Assembly (NCBI RefSeq): GCF_004217045.1
Contig: NZ_SGXM01000008.1
Coordinates: forward strand, 124,001-188,000
Length of the DNA: 64,000 nucleotides
Direction: 5' to 3'
DNA from: Cupriavidus agavae
GTDB lineage: Bacteria > Pseudomonadota > Gammaproteobacteria > Burkholderiales > Burkholderiaceae
The position numbers were made by a program, and so were the translations under genes. Below are positions 34,895 to 41,029 of this stretch, in pieces (positions within the stretch are counted from its first letter, which is position 1; the number at the start of each line of letters is the position of its first letter). The notes beneath the pieces are model-generated. The model did not search any database, was not told the origin of the DNA, and saw only the letters and a list, made by a program, of their open reading frames with translations.

Positions 34895-35443
34895 ATGAGC
34901 AAGATCCAGGCAACGACCCCGCAAGGGCTGGCAGTGGCCGATGGCGAGGCCGTGCACCGGCTGCGCGCCGTGGTGGCCACGTACCGCACCACGGTGCAGG
35001 CGTACACGCTGGTGGTATCGGCCGACGAAATGACGGCGCTGACCAACGGCCCGGCGCCGGCCCATTCGGCCCGCGACTACCGCGCCCAGGCCCATCTGGA
35101 CCGCTTGCGCGATGCCGTGCGCGACTCCGGCCTGGCCCTGCCGAGCGCCATCGTCGTGGCGGTGTCGGGCGGTCGCATGCGTTGCGAATGCGACCACCTC
35201 TACGCGCTGGAACTGCGCCCCGCAGCCGGCGACAGCCTGATCGTGCTCGACGGGCACGAGCGTCTGGCCGAACTGGCGGCGTCAGGGCGCGGCGATATCA
35301 AGACGCTGGTCACGGCCGTACTGTGCGCTACCTCGATCGACGGCACCGACCATGCGTCGAGCGCCGCGACCGAGGCGGGCTGCGCCATGATGCACCGCTC
35401 GGCGGCCGCCCGCTGGGCGGGCGCCACGCGGGTCTGGCAGTAG
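34895..35443 (+). CDS. Uncharacterised protein with DGQHR-like pattern
   Basis: A 182-residue protein, probably cotranscribed with the acyl-CoA dehydrogenase (51-base gap; start after GGAGACAGG). The order of elements resembles the DGQHR/DndB fold: TTVQAYTLVVSADEMTAL, then LDRLRDAVRDSGLALPSAIVVAVSGG, then SLIVLDGHERLAELAASGRGDIKTLVTAVL, where LDGHERL (118-124) sits at the place of DGQHR. The signature is degenerate and I infer the relation by eye only. It otherwise looks hypothetical; the role beside a fatty acid gene is unclear. It is convergent with the next gene (8-base gap). Confidence 0.55.
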   Translation: MSKIQATTPQGLAVADGEAVHRLRAVVATYRTTVQAYTLVVSADEMTALTNGPAPAHSARDYRAQAHLDRLRDAVRDSGLALPSAIVVAVSGGRMRCECDHLYALELRPAAGDSLIVLDGHERLAELAASGRGDIKTLVTAVLCATSIDGTDHASSAATEAGCAMMHRSAAARWAGATRVWQ

Positions 35444-35451
35444 CAGTCCGG

Positions 35452-35823
35452 TCAGGACCAGATGGTATCGGCGTCGCGCAGCAGGTGGCCCGCGAGGATG
35501 TAGTCACCGAGGCGCGTCGCCTTGGCTTCGAGCTGTTCCAGTTCGAGGCCGGCCAGCAGCCCAAGATCGAACTGGCAATAGAGATTGCGTTGCCGGAACG
35601 TGGTCTTGGGCCTGGCCAGCCCTTCCAGCAGGGCGTCGCGTGACCGCACCGCGATGCTTTCCTGCCCGCGGTATTGCACCCTGATCCCACGCTTTTCGCC
35701 GAGCCGGCCGAGTTCGACGGCATCCTGCCATCCCGTTTCGTAATCCAGCTCCAGCGCAAGCCCCTGACTCGCGCCCAGAAGCCTGAGCGCCTCTGCCTTG
35801 CTGCCTGCTCGCACGATGGACAT
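35452..35823 (-). CDS. Unrecognised gene under a LexA-type promoter
   Basis: A 123-residue soluble protein with no signal or membrane segment, starting MSIVRAGSKAEALRLL at 35823 after GAGGTGGGG. It contains LALELDYETGWQDAVELGRL and YCQFDLGLLAGLELEQLEAKATRLGDYILAG and is largely helical, acidic and leucine-rich in its second half. I recognise no family and no catalytic motif. Its start is 22 bases from a consensus LexA box that overlaps a near-consensus sigma70 promoter, so it is probably induced by DNA damage. A SulA-like or other SOS role would be a guess. Confidence 0.75.
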   Translation of the reverse strand: MSIVRAGSKAEALRLLGASQGLALELDYETGWQDAVELGRLGEKRGIRVQYRGQESIAVRSRDALLEGLARPKTTFRQRNLYCQFDLGLLAGLELEQLEAKATRLGDYILAGHLLRDADTIWS

Positions 35824-35844
35824 CCCCACCTCAAGTCTCAAAAA

Positions 35845-35864
35845 CACTGTATGAATATACAGTG
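35845..35864 (-). promoter_or_regulatory. LexA (SOS) box
   Basis: The 20-base palindrome CACTGTATGAATATACAGTG contains CTGT-N8-ACAG, the exact SOS-box spacing with an A/T-rich centre. It overlaps the -10 element of the promoter at 35854-35882. Confidence 0.8.
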
Positions 35865-35882
35865 TTCGGTGGATTGTCTCAA
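35854..35882 (-). promoter_or_regulatory. Sigma70 promoter of the LexA-controlled gene
   Basis: On the minus strand TTGAGA (35877-35882) and TATATT (35854-35859) each match five of six consensus bases and are exactly 17 bases apart. The -10 lies inside the LexA box, the classic repression arrangement. Confidence 0.75.
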
Positions 35883-35902: not shown

Positions 35903-38794
35903 TCAGGGCGTGCCGGAAGGACTGGCCGAGGCCGGGCCCTGCGCGGCGGGCGCCGAAGCGGCCTGCGCGCCGGCCGGGGCTGCCGGCTGGCCAGCGGCCG
36001 CGTTATCGAAATCGCCGGCAAATGCCTGCGACAGCATGGCCGGACCCAGGTAGCGGCGGATCGCGGCGTTGACCGCCTCCGGCGTGGCTGTGCGGATACG
36101 CGCCTCGATCCCGGCGGTATGGGCCATGGTGCGGCCCAGGTACGCCTGGTTGGCCAGCGCGCCGGCCAGCGCTCCGTCACGGGTGCGGCTGATCTTTCCC
36201 TGTTCCAGCAGGCCATTGGATGCTTCGGCCAGTTCCTCCGCCGTGATGCCGTCGCGGACGAAGCGCGCCATTTCCTCGTCCACGGCGCGGCGCAGCCGGG
36301 GCAGGTTGTGCGGCGCGTACATCGCCCACAGGCCGAAGCGCCCGGCGCGATCCAGCGCGCCGACGTTGACCGAACTCGACACCCCATAGCTGATGCCGTC
36401 GCGCTGGCGCAGCCGGTCCGCCAGGCGGCTGCGCATGCCGGTGCCGCCGAACACGCGGCTGGCGATCAGCATCAGCGGGTAGTCCGGGGAGTCGCTGACG
36501 AGGTCGATCGGCTGCGAGGCCACGAACACGGCATTGGCCTTGCCGGCCGTGTTGAGCGTGAACTGCGAGCCGGGAATCTCCACGAAGGGCCGGTCCACCC
36601 GTTCGAAGGGCACCGCTGCCCGCCAGTCGCCGAACAGGTAGGCCGCCTGCCGTGCGGCGTCGTCCGCGTCGAAATCGCCGACGAGGGCAAGCTGGGCGTG
36701 GCCGGCGCCGTAGAACCGCGCGTGGAAGTCGCGCAGGTCGTCGAGCGTGACCGTGCGCAGCTCGGCCAGGCTTTCGTCGAACGTGGGGGTGTAGCGCGGA
36801 TCGCCGTCGCGGTACGGGTTGCCATGGCGCCCCAGCACGTTGGGGGCCAGCGCGCCCGGCTGGTTGCGCTGGCTCTCGATGCCCGCGATGCTGCTGGCGC
36901 GCAGCGTTTCGAGTTCGTTGGCCGGGAAGGTCGGCATGCGCAGCACCGTGCGCAGCAGCGCCATCAGCTCCGGCAGATGCTCGCGGCGCGTCTCGAAGCG
37001 CACCGACAGCCGTTCGGCGTTGCCCGAGATCGCCACGTTGGCTTTCAGGGCTTCGAGCCGGTCGGCAATCTGCTGGCGGCTGAAGGCACCGGCGCCGCGG
37101 TCGAGCATGGCCGCCGTCAGCGAACCGGTCGCCGACTTGCCCTGCAGCGCTTCCAGGTTGCCCACGCGCAGGATCAGCGTGCCGTTGACCGCGCCGCCCC
37201 GGCTCGGCTTGGGCAGCAGGGCCAGCTGCATGCCATTGGGCAGCGTCTGGCGCCGGGTGTGGGCGTCGATATTGGCCGGCGCCGGGTCGAAGGCGGCCAC
37301 GGCCTGCGCCGCCGGCTTGCCGGCGTAGCCCTGGGTCAGCGCGGCCACGTCCGGCGCGGCCGGGATGCTGGCCAGTTGCGGCCGGTCCCCCGGAATGAAC
37401 TGGCCGACCGTGCGGTTGGCGGGCCGGAAATAGTTCTCGGCCACGCGCTGCACGTCGGCCAGCGTGGTCGATTCCACGCGGTCGCGGTAGATGAAGAACA
37501 GGCGCCAGTCGCCCTTGGCGATGGCGCCCGACAGCGCCACGCCATAGGCCGCCGGATCGTTGAGCGTCTTCTCGAACCCGTTGCGCAGCCGGATGCGCGC
37601 GCGCTCCACCTCTTCCTGCGTCACGGGCTGCGTGGCGAGGCTTTCAACGGCGGCGATCAGCGCGTCGCGCACCGGCTCGATCGGGCGGTCCTTGCTGGTG
37701 CCGGCGGCAAACACGATCACGCCGGGGTCCTTCATCGTCGAGAAATACGAACCCTGCCAGGCCGCCTTGCGCGTATCCACGAGCGCCCGTTCGAGCCGCC
37801 CGCCGGGCGTGTCGGCGAGGATGACCGACAGCATGTCGAGCGCGGTCATGTCGGGGTGCGCACCCGGGCCCACGTGGTACATCGCGGCCACGATGCGGCT
37901 GTCGCCCGAGCGGGTCAGCGACACCTCGCGCGTGCCCTCCTGCGGCGGCTCCACGGTGTACTCGGCCGGCAGCACGCGGGTGGGGCGCGGGATCGGCCCG
38001 AACGCCTGCTCGATGCGGGTCAGCGTGCGCGCCGGGTCGAACTGGCCCGTCACCACCAGCACGGCATTGTCGGGCTGGTAGTAGCGCCGGTAGAACGCCC
38101 GCAGGTTGTCGATGCCCACGCGCTCCACATCGCTGCGCGCGCCGATCACGGCCTTGCCGTAGTTGTGCCAGCGGTAGGCGGCGGCGTACATCTGCTGCTG
38201 GAGCATCCGCATCGGATTGTTCTCGCCGATCTCCATCTCGTTGCGGACCACCGTCATTTCGCTGTCGAGGTCGGGGCGCGCCACGAAGCTGTTGACCATG
38301 CGGTCGGCCTCCATGCGCAGCGCCCAGTCGAGGTTGTCGTCACTGGCCGCGAAGGTCTGGAAGTAGTTGGTGCGGTCCTGGTTGGTCGTGCCGTTGTACT
38401 GCATGCCGCGCCGCGCGAACTCGGTGGGAATCGTGCGGCCCGGCAGCGACGGCGTGCCCTTGAACAGCAGGTGTTCGAGCAGGTGGGCCATGCCCGTCTC
38501 GCCGTAGTTCTCGTGCCGGCTGCCTACCAGGTACGTGATGTTCACCGTGGTGGTCGGCTGCGCGTCGTCGGGTGCCAGCAGGATGCGCAGGCCGTTCGGC
38601 AGGCGGTACTCGCTGATGCCCTCGACCGTGGTGACCAGCGCGGCGCGGGCCAGCGGCGCGGCCGGCATCGCAGGGGCTGGCTTCGCGGCCTGGGCGGCGG
38701 ATGCGGCCAGCGCCGCCAGCGCGGCCAGCAGGGCGCATGCGGTGCGCGAAGTGCGGGAAGTGCGGGAAACGAGGGAAAGGAGGGTACCGAACAT
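35903..38794 (-). CDS. M16-family zinc metallopeptidase (pitrilysin-like, two domain pairs)
   Basis: A 963-residue secreted or periplasmic protease. The start at 38794 gives a signal peptide (MFGTLLSLVSR to about SAAQA, residue 36). The active domain has LPNGLRILL followed by GMAHLLEHLLFKGT, the inverted zinc motif HxxEH at 104-108, and the distal ExxxxxxE region (ENNPMRML). The second half repeats the fold (RRQTLPNGMQLALLP) but has GSLTAAMLDRGA in place of HxxEH, as expected for the inactive lobe. The C-terminal tail is Ala/Pro-rich. Substrate unknown. Confidence 0.9.
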   Translation of the reverse strand: MFGTLLSLVSRTSRTSRTACALLAALAALAASAAQAAKPAPAMPAAPLARAALVTTVEGISEYRLPNGLRILLAPDDAQPTTTVNITYLVGSRHENYGETGMAHLLEHLLFKGTPSLPGRTIPTEFARRGMQYNGTTNQDRTNYFQTFAASDDNLDWALRMEADRMVNSFVARPDLDSEMTVVRNEMEIGENNPMRMLQQQMYAAAYRWHNYGKAVIGARSDVERVGIDNLRAFYRRYYQPDNAVLVVTGQFDPARTLTRIEQAFGPIPRPTRVLPAEYTVEPPQEGTREVSLTRSGDSRIVAAMYHVGPGAHPDMTALDMLSVILADTPGGRLERALVDTRKAAWQGSYFSTMKDPGVIVFAAGTSKDRPIEPVRDALIAAVESLATQPVTQEEVERARIRLRNGFEKTLNDPAAYGVALSGAIAKGDWRLFFIYRDRVESTTLADVQRVAENYFRPANRTVGQFIPGDRPQLASIPAAPDVAALTQGYAGKPAAQAVAAFDPAPANIDAHTRRQTLPNGMQLALLPKPSRGGAVNGTLILRVGNLEALQGKSATGSLTAAMLDRGAGAFSRQQIADRLEALKANVAISGNAERLSVRFETRREHLPELMALLRTVLRMPTFPANELETLRASSIAGIESQRNQPGALAPNVLGRHGNPYRDGDPRYTPTFDESLAELRTVTLDDLRDFHARFYGAGHAQLALVGDFDADDAARQAAYLFGDWRAAVPFERVDRPFVEIPGSQFTLNTAGKANAVFVASQPIDLVSDSPDYPLMLIASRVFGGTGMRSRLADRLRQRDGISYGVSSSVNVGALDRAGRFGLWAMYAPHNLPRLRRAVDEEMARFVRDGITAEELAEASNGLLEQGKISRTRDGALAGALANQAYLGRTMAHTAGIEARIRTATPEAVNAAIRRYLGPAMLSQAFAGDFDNAAAGQPAAPAGAQAASAPAAQGPASASPSGTP

Positions 38795-38975
38795 GCAGAC
38801 TCCAGGGGCGGCGTCGGGGCGCCGCGAACGAGCAGATTCTAGCCGCTGACTTGCCCCGTGAAACGAGCGCGGACGCACTTTCAGAATTCGGGACATTTTT
38901 CGCGGAGGCTTTGAGAATCGGTGCCAGCCCAGGCTGGACAAGGGCTCGCTGCCGTCGGCGGGGGCGCTCAGGCGC

Positions 38976-40544
38976 ATGTCCGATTCCAGCGCATTTGATC
39001 GGCGGCAAAGGCGTACGATGCTCGGCATGGAACTCGATCCCGACACCTGCTACAAGGCCATCGCCTCGCATGACCGCCGTTTCGACGGACGCTTCTTCGT
39101 GGGCGTGTCGTCGACGGGCGTGTACTGCCGGCCGATCTGCGCGGTGCGCACCCCCCGGCGCGAGAACTGCACGTTCTACGAGTCGGCCGCTGCCGCCGAG
39201 AAGCACGGCTTCCGCCCCTGCCTGCGCTGCCGTCCCGAACTGGCGCCCGGCCACGGGCTGGCCGATATCTCGGGGCGGCTGGCGCAGGCGGCGGCCACGC
39301 TGATCGACGAGGGCTTCATGGCCGAAGCCGGCGTGGCGCAACTGGCCGCGCGCATCGGCGTGACCGAGCGGCACCTGCGCCGGCTGTTCGATGCCGAGTT
39401 TGGCGTCTCGGTGCACGAGTACGCGCAGACGCAGAAGCTCCTTCTGGCGAAACGGCTATTGACCGACACCACGCTGCCGGTCACGCAGGTGGCGCTGGCG
39501 GCCGGCTTCGGCAGCGTGCGGCGCTTCAACGACGTGCTCAAGGAGCGCTACGGCCTGACCCCGCTGGCGATGCGACGGCGTGCCGCCGAAGGCATGGCGG
39601 ACCGGCTCGTCTTCGAACTGGGCTACCGGCCGCCCCTGGCGTGGGACCAATGGCTCGGATTCCTGGGCGTGCGGGTCGTGGACGGCATCGAGCAATGCCA
39701 TGGCGGCGCCTACACGCGCACGCTCGGCATCGACGCCGACGGCCGGCGGCACCTTGGCTGGGTGCGGCTCGAACATGTGCCGAAGCGTACCGTGGTGCGC
39801 GTCACCTTGTCGGCGTCGCTCGCGTGTGTGATTCCACAGGCGCTGGGCAAGGTGCGGCGGCTCTGCGATCTTGGCTGCCGGCCCGATATCGTCGATGCAC
39901 ACCTCGGCGATCTGGCCGCCGATACGCCGGGGGTCCGGCTGCCCGGTGCGTTCGATGGCCTGGAGATTGCCGTGCGCGCCATCGTCGGACAGGTCATTTC
40001 GGTGGTGCAGGCGCGGCGTATCCTGGCGCGGCTGGTGCAGATCGCCGGCGCGGCGTTGCCCGGGGACGCGCTGGCCGGGCTGGCAGCGGCGCCGCACGCC
40101 GCGCCGCTGACCCATGCGTTTCCCACGGCCCAGGCACTGGCCGCGCTGCCCGATGCCGACTATCAGGCGGCTGGCGTGCCGATGGCCAAGACCCGCACGA
40201 TCCGCGCGCTGGCGCGTCTGGTAGCGGCCGGCGAGATCCGGCTCGATCCGCACGCGGCGCCCGATGACACCGTGGCGAAGCTGCGCGCGGTGGAGGGCAT
40301 TGGCGACTGGACCGCGCAATACGTGGCGATGCGTGCACTGGGCTGGCCCGACGCGTTCCCCGGCACCGACTACGCGCTGCGCAAGGTGCTCGGCGTCAGC
40401 ACGGTCCGCGCGATGCAGGCCAGCACCGCGCAATGGGCGCCGTGGCGCGCCTACGCGGCCATTCATCTCTGGCACCGCTACGAGGCGCTCAAGCAGGCGC
40501 CGGTGCAGGGCGGTGCCGATATCGGACAAGAGGAGTTGGCATGA
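38976..40544 (+). CDS. Fused Ada-type regulator and AlkA-type 3-methyladenine DNA glycosylase
   Basis: A 522-residue fusion. N-terminal Ada zinc domain with C51, C55, C82 and C85 (VYCRPIC and FRPCLRCRP), the site that accepts methyl groups from phosphotriesters; an AraC-type HTH (about 95-190, VTERHLRRLFDAEFGVSVHEY and VALAAGFGSVRRFNDVLKERYGLTP); an AlkA N-terminal domain; and an HhH-GPD glycosylase domain with AVEGIGDWTAQYVAMRALGWPDAFPGTDYALRK, whose Asp in DAFPGTD is the catalytic position. It lacks the Ada methyltransferase domain, which follows as ogt. The start may also be 39018. Both genes form an adaptive alkylation response unit. Confidence 0.93.
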   Translation: MSDSSAFDRRQRRTMLGMELDPDTCYKAIASHDRRFDGRFFVGVSSTGVYCRPICAVRTPRRENCTFYESAAAAEKHGFRPCLRCRPELAPGHGLADISGRLAQAAATLIDEGFMAEAGVAQLAARIGVTERHLRRLFDAEFGVSVHEYAQTQKLLLAKRLLTDTTLPVTQVALAAGFGSVRRFNDVLKERYGLTPLAMRRRAAEGMADRLVFELGYRPPLAWDQWLGFLGVRVVDGIEQCHGGAYTRTLGIDADGRRHLGWVRLEHVPKRTVVRVTLSASLACVIPQALGKVRRLCDLGCRPDIVDAHLGDLAADTPGVRLPGAFDGLEIAVRAIVGQVISVVQARRILARLVQIAGAALPGDALAGLAAAPHAAPLTHAFPTAQALAALPDADYQAAGVPMAKTRTIRALARLVAAGEIRLDPHAAPDDTVAKLRAVEGIGDWTAQYVAMRALGWPDAFPGTDYALRKVLGVSTVRAMQASTAQWAPWRAYAAIHLWHRYEALKQAPVQGGADIGQEELA

Positions 40545-41029
40545 CACAACATCGCATCATCGACAGCCCACTGGGCAACATCCTGCTGCGTGCCGAGGCC
40601 GGCGCGCTGACGGGCGTCTTCTTCGCGGGCCAGAAGTACTACCCGGCGCAGGATGGCGCCGGGTTTTCGGAGTCAGGCACCGAGGGGCGGGTACTGACGC
40701 AGGCCACCGAGCAACTGCGCGCCTATTTCGACGGCACGCTGCGGCGCTTCACGGTGCCGTTCCGCTTTGCCGGCAGCCCCTTCCAGCAACGGATCTGGCA
40801 GGCGCTCTGCGACATCGGATTTGGCGAAACGGCTACGTACGGTCAGCTCGCGCTGGGCATGGGACTACCGTCGAGCCATTCCCGCGCGGTGGGCGGGGCA
40901 GTGGGGCGCAACCCGCTGTCGGTGATCGTGCCGTGCCACCGTATCGTCGGGGCCTCGGGCGCGCTGACCGGCTACGCGGGCGGCGTCGACCGCAAGCGGA
41001 CCCTGCTCACGCTCGAAGGCGTGCTGTAG
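40541..41029 (+). CDS. ogt: Methylated-DNA-protein-cysteine methyltransferase
   Basis: A 162-residue suicide enzyme that removes O6-alkyl groups from guanine in DNA. The active-site motif is VIVPCHRIVGASG (acceptor Cys 132), with the helix-turn-helix FQQRIWQALCDIGFGETATYGQLA and the arginine finger region SRAVGGAVGRNPLS. Its ATG at 40541 overlaps the stop of the Ada-AlkA gene (ATGA) and is preceded by AGGAG, so translation is coupled. Confidence 0.96.
   Translation: MTQHRIIDSPLGNILLRAEAGALTGVFFAGQKYYPAQDGAGFSESGTEGRVLTQATEQLRAYFDGTLRRFTVPFRFAGSPFQQRIWQALCDIGFGETATYGQLALGMGLPSSHSRAVGGAVGRNPLSVIVPCHRIVGASGALTGYAGGVDRKRTLLTLEGVL

Follow-up and report, generated by a model that had tools for sequence, protein, structure and literature searches.

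A candidate LexA box and its promoter are conserved in Cupriavidus upstream of a gene for a 123-residue protein without a curated family

Lineage-specific SOS genes are where bacterial DNA-damage responses differ, and many of them have no known role. Sanchez-Alberola et al. (2012, PMC3323433) predicted the LexA regulons of beta-proteobacteria, among them Ralstonia eutropha, R. metallidurans and Cupriavidus taiwanensis, and the accessible part of that article names two hypothetical genes, hypA and hypB, as possibly LexA-regulated. The operator type described there, CTGT-N8-ACAG, is shared by the candidate LexA box CACTGTATATTCATACAGTG of Cupriavidus agavae that is analysed here. As far as the regulon is set out in that part of the article, its core genes lexA, recA, uvrA, dinB and imuA have boxed counterparts in the C. 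agavae genome. A boxed Rad3-like helicase corresponds there to the gene listed as 'Helicase c2', and a boxed PA0069-type radical-SAM protein to the splB-type gene. In the same genus, C. metallidurans CH34 has lexA and recA, according to an excerpt of PMC2864759.

The window, i.e. the whole stretch of 64,000 nucleotides that was analysed, carries the 20-bp candidate box on the minus strand at 35845..35864, the CTGT-N8-ACAG core occupying 35847-35862. The palindrome ends 21 bases 5' of the ATG of a coding sequence located on the same strand (35452..35823), which reads from this ATG at 35823 through 123 codons to the stop TGA at 35454-35452 and whose orthologues in the genus are 72-87% identical at the protein level. 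A ribosome-binding site, GAGGTG (35827..35832, minus strand), is located 3 bases 5' of the ATG. The initial annotation had claimed a TTGAGA/TATATT promoter with a 17-base spacing and a -10 hexamer lying within the CTGT-N8-ACAG box. The minus-strand sequence agrees on every point, with the -35 hexamer TTGAGA at 35877..35882, a 17-base spacer and the -10 hexamer TATATT at 35854..35859. This promoter is of a near-consensus sigma70 type and, its -10 being inside CACTGTATATTCATACAGTG, the candidate operator overlaps it.

The bare CTGT-N8-ACAG pattern was rejected as evidence on its own. The window contains a single occurrence where 0.59 are expected (at least one was found in 42 of 100 shuffles), and the 39 sites of the 5.79-Mb genome compare with 25 for a reversed control pattern, which makes the motif alone weak evidence. 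Since the pattern was not beyond chance, the genes behind other sites of the genome were inspected in 20 stretches that cover some of the 39 sites and were chosen mostly for their A+T-rich inner bases. Boxes were found 5' of lexA (two boxes), recA, uvrA, dinB, a UvrD-like helicase (identified with Pfam) and imuA (NCBIfam NF033429), in line with the assertion that boxes of this form mark SOS genes. Boxes also precede a TIGR03916 radical-SAM protein, the PA0069-type radical-SAM protein (weak SPL match, E 0.00095) and the Rad3-like helicase (Pfam DEAD_2, with NCBIfam matches below cutoff), and among the 20 inspected stretches several others had no recognisable repair gene behind their box. A scoring matrix was derived from the ten own-genome boxes that precede the genes named here, picked by these genes and leaving out the target. 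On this matrix CACTGTATATTCATACAGTG scores 33.96 bits, the second-best place in the window scoring 0.3, and the leave-one-out scores of the ten boxes themselves range from 18.2 to 36.9. No site reaching 24.4 was found in 20 Mb of simulated first-order Markov sequence. The full 20-bp box, taken together with its conservation, is far beyond chance.

Homologs of the 123-residue protein were searched for in 398 Burkholderiaceae genomes covering 25 genera, and relatives of any kind were detected in 67 of these genomes and 3 of these genera. Loci shared with named records indicate that the window's genus in this set is Cupriavidus and that another genus is Ralstonia. Of the 60 Cupriavidus genomes, 59 contain a relative of some kind; in 57 the best match reaches at least 71.5% identity, the level taken here as orthologous. 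The three remaining genomes are G291 (97% complete, best match of 68% identity), G385 (86% complete) and G398 (54% complete); the gene is dispensable in G291, given that this 97%-complete genome has no orthologue-level copy. The proposal had been made to depend beforehand on conservation of the box upstream of orthologues. CTGT-N8-ACAG was found within 300 bases upstream at all 57 loci selected by identity, one of which is the window's own, and at all 35 named orthologue loci, whose genomes largely overlap with those of the first set and mostly bear the label Cupriavidus (one bears Ralstonia sp. and one Burkholderiaceae bacterium); the promoter layout was kept as well. Removal of identical genes left 56 unique orthologue loci, defined by an identity above 71% plus a box. 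When unique loci were picked by identity alone, 56 of 57 had the box; the one without it, L058, falls among the paralogues in the protein tree and adjoins an H-NS gene.

Upstream box scores of the 56 unique orthologues range from 23.5 to 35.7, and the first base of CTGT lies 35 to 42 bases before the start codon in 55 of them, with L039 at 212. Across the aligned orthologues the box core hardly varies, in contrast to the sequence upstream of it, where variation spares the -35 hexamer. The -10 hexamer TATATT is identical in 56/56 loci and TTGNNN is placed 17 bases upstream of it in 54 and 18 bases upstream in 2. When the last 14 bases before the start are compared, the 12 commonest forms, which account for 47 of the 56 loci, all contain GAGG. 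A protein identity of 72-87% associated with a near-invariant operator and promoter argues for a lasting selection on both the gene and its control.

From these comparisons we estimate at roughly 0.85 the probability that the 123-codon gene is under LexA control, a prediction for which comparing sequences could hardly provide firmer ground. Because each examined close relative having the gene carries the box, the gene is very probably part of the SOS response to DNA damage in Cupriavidus. In undamaged cells, LexA sitting on the 20-bp box would cover the -10 hexamer and RNA polymerase could not start. DNA damage would activate RecA and lead to the self-cleavage of LexA, and the near-consensus sigma70-type promoter would then produce a short-leader mRNA for the 123-residue alpha/beta protein. 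We infer this repression and induction from the established knowledge of LexA; the elements present in the sequence are the box, the promoter, the frame, their conservation, and lexA and recA genes standing behind boxes of the same form.

The gene adjoins an M16 peptidase gene, its upstream neighbour (35903..39046 on the minus strand as the longest frame), as had been noted at the outset and as the Pfam matches PF00675 and PF05193 indicate. The true start of this neighbour, which we count as context and not as a part of the boxed unit, is probably later since the first codons of the longest frame overlap the Ada frame. An alkylation-repair unit had also been placed within 3 kb: the unit is indeed there (Ada-AlkA protein and O6-methylguanine methyltransferase, 38976..41029 on the plus strand, identified with Pfam), but slightly further away, the Ada-AlkA frame starting at 38976, 3.15 kb from the start of the 123-codon gene, followed by the methyltransferase. 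The M16 gene lies directly upstream in 48 of the 56 unique orthologue loci, and an Ada N-terminus was found at 30 of the 35 named loci in the flanks retrieved, which extend to 4 kb at most. An M16 match was not found in C. respiraculi (L047), where only 170 bases separate the gene from Ada. This neighbourhood is a hint at most because close relatives share gene order anyway. On the other side of the gene, the window contains a convergent frame of 182 aa without curated family (34895-35443, plus strand); at 23 of the 35 named orthologue loci, a relative of this frame stands downstream of the gene.

The initial annotation had described the protein as of no family it knew. This stands as regards curated families, no Pfam, NCBIfam or PHROG family being matched, but a database name does exist: NCBI and UniRef entries called 'PHA-granule associated protein 4', up to 87% identical, belong to the same protein family. 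We take this name as a label since the phrase was not found in the open-licence PMC papers searched. Comparison of 27 family members with PADLOC and Pfam returned stray weak matches, each in a single member, such as HTH_41 (Pfam, E 0.0071). By Pfam, the 123-residue protein has no recognised DNA-binding domain, and neither it nor the 27 family members match the H-NS C-terminal DNA-binding domain. No match to the protein was obtained in a PDB sequence search with E values up to 10, nor in phage records searched at E 0.01. The protein is near neutral (pI 6.6, for a family median of 5.9), and D34, K73, R77, R79, C83, D107 and other positions are invariant among 65 sequences. Its structure was predicted from the family sequences with a pLDDT of 94.3 and the element order E-H-E-H-E-E-H-E-H-E-E; comparison of this model with solved structures gave no clear match, which is not proof of a new fold.

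Extra copies of the gene, at about 46-72% identity, number 0 to 10 per genus genome having an orthologue. A plasmid collection contains 21 records with a match, of which 4 hold an orthologue (80-90% identity; three of these records are replicons of at least 2.5 Mb) and 17 hold more distant copies. Plasmids with distant copies include pHG1 of C. necator H16, which has them in two places, as well as two from Aeromonas and one from Vibrio. Upstream of the Cupriavidus paralogues, none of 42 unique rows has a site scoring above 5.7, a level to be compared with shuffled upstream regions, for which the 99th percentile is 6.8 and the highest score 15.0. The 13 unique Ralstonia rows are divided, with 5 scoring at least 27, single rows at 17.7, 10.8 and 8.2, and 5 below zero. 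In Ralstonia L175, L101, L075, L166 and L088, the LexA-type boxes are found 195-252 bases before the homologous (putative) start.

A tree was built from 96 proteins and 123 columns and rooted on the long Aeromonas branch, about half of its forks being unresolved and its root unsure. One group of this tree (SH-aLRT 99) gathers the Ralstonia rows with all Cupriavidus paralogues but L067b and L091b, which form long branches outside it, and the six best-scoring Ralstonia rows cluster together (87). In the simplest history, LexA control would belong to the vertically inherited gene and would have been lost in most accessory copies, the reverse history being possible.

Inspection of flanks of up to 4 kb at 45 paralogue loci (9 from Ralstonia) revealed an H-NS-type gene at 21 and a cold-shock gene at 11. 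The predicted LexA-controlled copy differs in this respect from these H-NS-containing accessory modules of plasmids and islands: neither H-NS nor cold-shock genes were found in the fetched flanks of the 35 named orthologue loci (0/35 for each). Within 8 paralogue-rich genomes, H-NS is present within 4 kb of 25 of the 44 listed paralogues and is divergent within 1.5 kb for 17 of them, where whole-genome density predicts 0.008 per locus, a background that should be read bearing in mind that accessory DNA may be richer in such genes and that the paralogue copies are not independent. When the neighbouring frames of paralogues were clustered, the recurrent clusters were H-NS (19 loci), cold-shock (10), a 77-aa type (10), a Lys/Ala-rich protein (7) and Hfq (5), the H-NS, cold-shock and Hfq identities being assigned by Pfam on one example each; the H-NS C-terminal domain was matched in the example neighbour of one paralogue. 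A divergent pair made of a paralogue and an H-NS-type gene, 0.26-1.2 kb apart, recurs at L057, L058, L063, L071, L077 and other loci, and in G291 (C6, C7, C9) 6 of the 7 copies are arranged in this way.

Given the recurrent H-NS, cold-shock and Hfq neighbours of the accessory copies, our leading guess, which we put forward tentatively, is that the nucleoid or nucleic acids are the target of the protein; it may for example change H-NS-type silencing or the handling of RNA or DNA during SOS. Against this guess stand the near-neutral pI, the lack of a recognised DNA-binding domain and of a clear structural relative, and the restriction of the H-NS link to paralogues. A more elaborate proposal would make it an SOS-induced protein of new fold, from a family that acts on nucleoid silencing of the H-NS type or on the RNA/DNA-binding regulators associated with it; the copy on the chromosome would be damage-induced, and those on plasmids and islands would carry their own H-NS, cold-shock or Hfq gene. 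This proposal is a long shot which, if true, would link DNA damage to the release of silenced foreign DNA in Cupriavidus. Two other roles rank behind the nucleoid or nucleic-acid guess. The protein might be an SOS checkpoint protein, i.e. a lineage-specific inhibitor of cell division taking the place of SulA. Like SulA it is small and predicted to be LexA-controlled, and no SulA (PF03846) match exists in the C. agavae genome, E. coli being matched among 14 control genomes. However, the protein itself has neither a SulA family match nor a clear structural match, and many box-less accessory paralogues reside on plasmids and islands, where freely expressed division inhibitors would be odd cargo; we regard this role as improbable. 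The database name suggests instead a polyhydroxyalkanoate-granule protein, which would also be LexA-controlled. NCBI and UniRef entries from both Cupriavidus and Ralstonia bear this name, and according to the available part of PMC4879537, PhaM attaches the PHB granules of R. eutropha, the nucleoid being the most likely site of attachment. Against it, Pfam detects no phasin domain in the protein or in the 27 family members and the name has no counterpart in the literature searched above, and we consider a granule function doubtful.

Two further alternatives concern the box and the weight of the gene. Rather than being a LexA box, the palindrome could terminate transcription of the M16 protease gene, and in the window it can fold into an 8-bp hairpin of -8.4 kcal/mol followed by TTTTT. 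Yet TTTT occurs within 14 bases after the box in just 5 of the 56 unique orthologue loci, the box is kept in the 8 loci for which the search yielded no M16 gene directly upstream, and what is conserved is the sequence itself, beyond its pairing, matching the lexA and recA boxes. On these grounds the terminator was rejected as highly improbable. It could also be that LexA binds the box while the gene contributes little, being conserved but accessory and without important SOS function. The lack of an orthologue-level copy in the 97%-complete G291 and the occurrence of family relatives in only 67/398 genomes and 3/25 genera are in line with such a minor role, whereas the 72-87% identity across the genus and the near-invariant operator and promoter speak against it, and we hold it to be rather unlikely.

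As far as the accessible part of PMC3323433 allows a comparison, the 123-codon gene may be the hypA gene of that study, and for this reason we claim no priority for its LexA control. Another gene of the genome, encoding a 105-aa protein behind two LexA-type boxes (L002:1263-1577 minus; G000:C1:1202962-1203276), is a good hypA candidate and fits the description given there better, because it is found in 9 of 25 genera against 3 of 25 for the 123-codon gene. The 105-aa protein has no curated family; its homologues are present in 34 of 100 family genomes, and 6 of the 8 loci retrieved have a box. In the open-licence PMC titles and abstract beginnings searched, the 123-codon gene was not found described as LexA-controlled or damage-induced, the term 'PHA-granule associated protein' together with LexA was not found in the open-licence PMC literature, and the main text of PMC5343134, in its available part, contains no LexA. 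The gene and its operator are kept in 57 of the 60 genomes examined in a genus that includes model hosts for bioplastics and metal resistance. They provide a concrete reason to check the vague name 'PHA-granule associated protein 4', and draw attention to a protein family with accessory copies that keep company with genes for nucleoid proteins.

Other boxed sites of the genome are of various kinds. Around position 1632 of L017, the box CTGTATATATATACAG lies in a stretch without clear gene, and the box CTGTATATCCATACAG precedes a zinc-ribbon-like frame of 82 aa (L015:1662-1907, plus strand). A 142-aa protein without curated family (L008:1811-2236 plus; G000:C2:157310-157735) has a box at -99 and is present in 3 of 100 family genomes, with a box in 3/3. 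Finally, the box CTGTACGTTTATACAG is located 31 bases upstream of a gene for an 86-aa protein (L004:1775-2032 plus; G000:C1:1579274-1579531), relatives of which occur in 7 of 100 family genomes, and a box was found at 7 of 8 fetched homologue loci.
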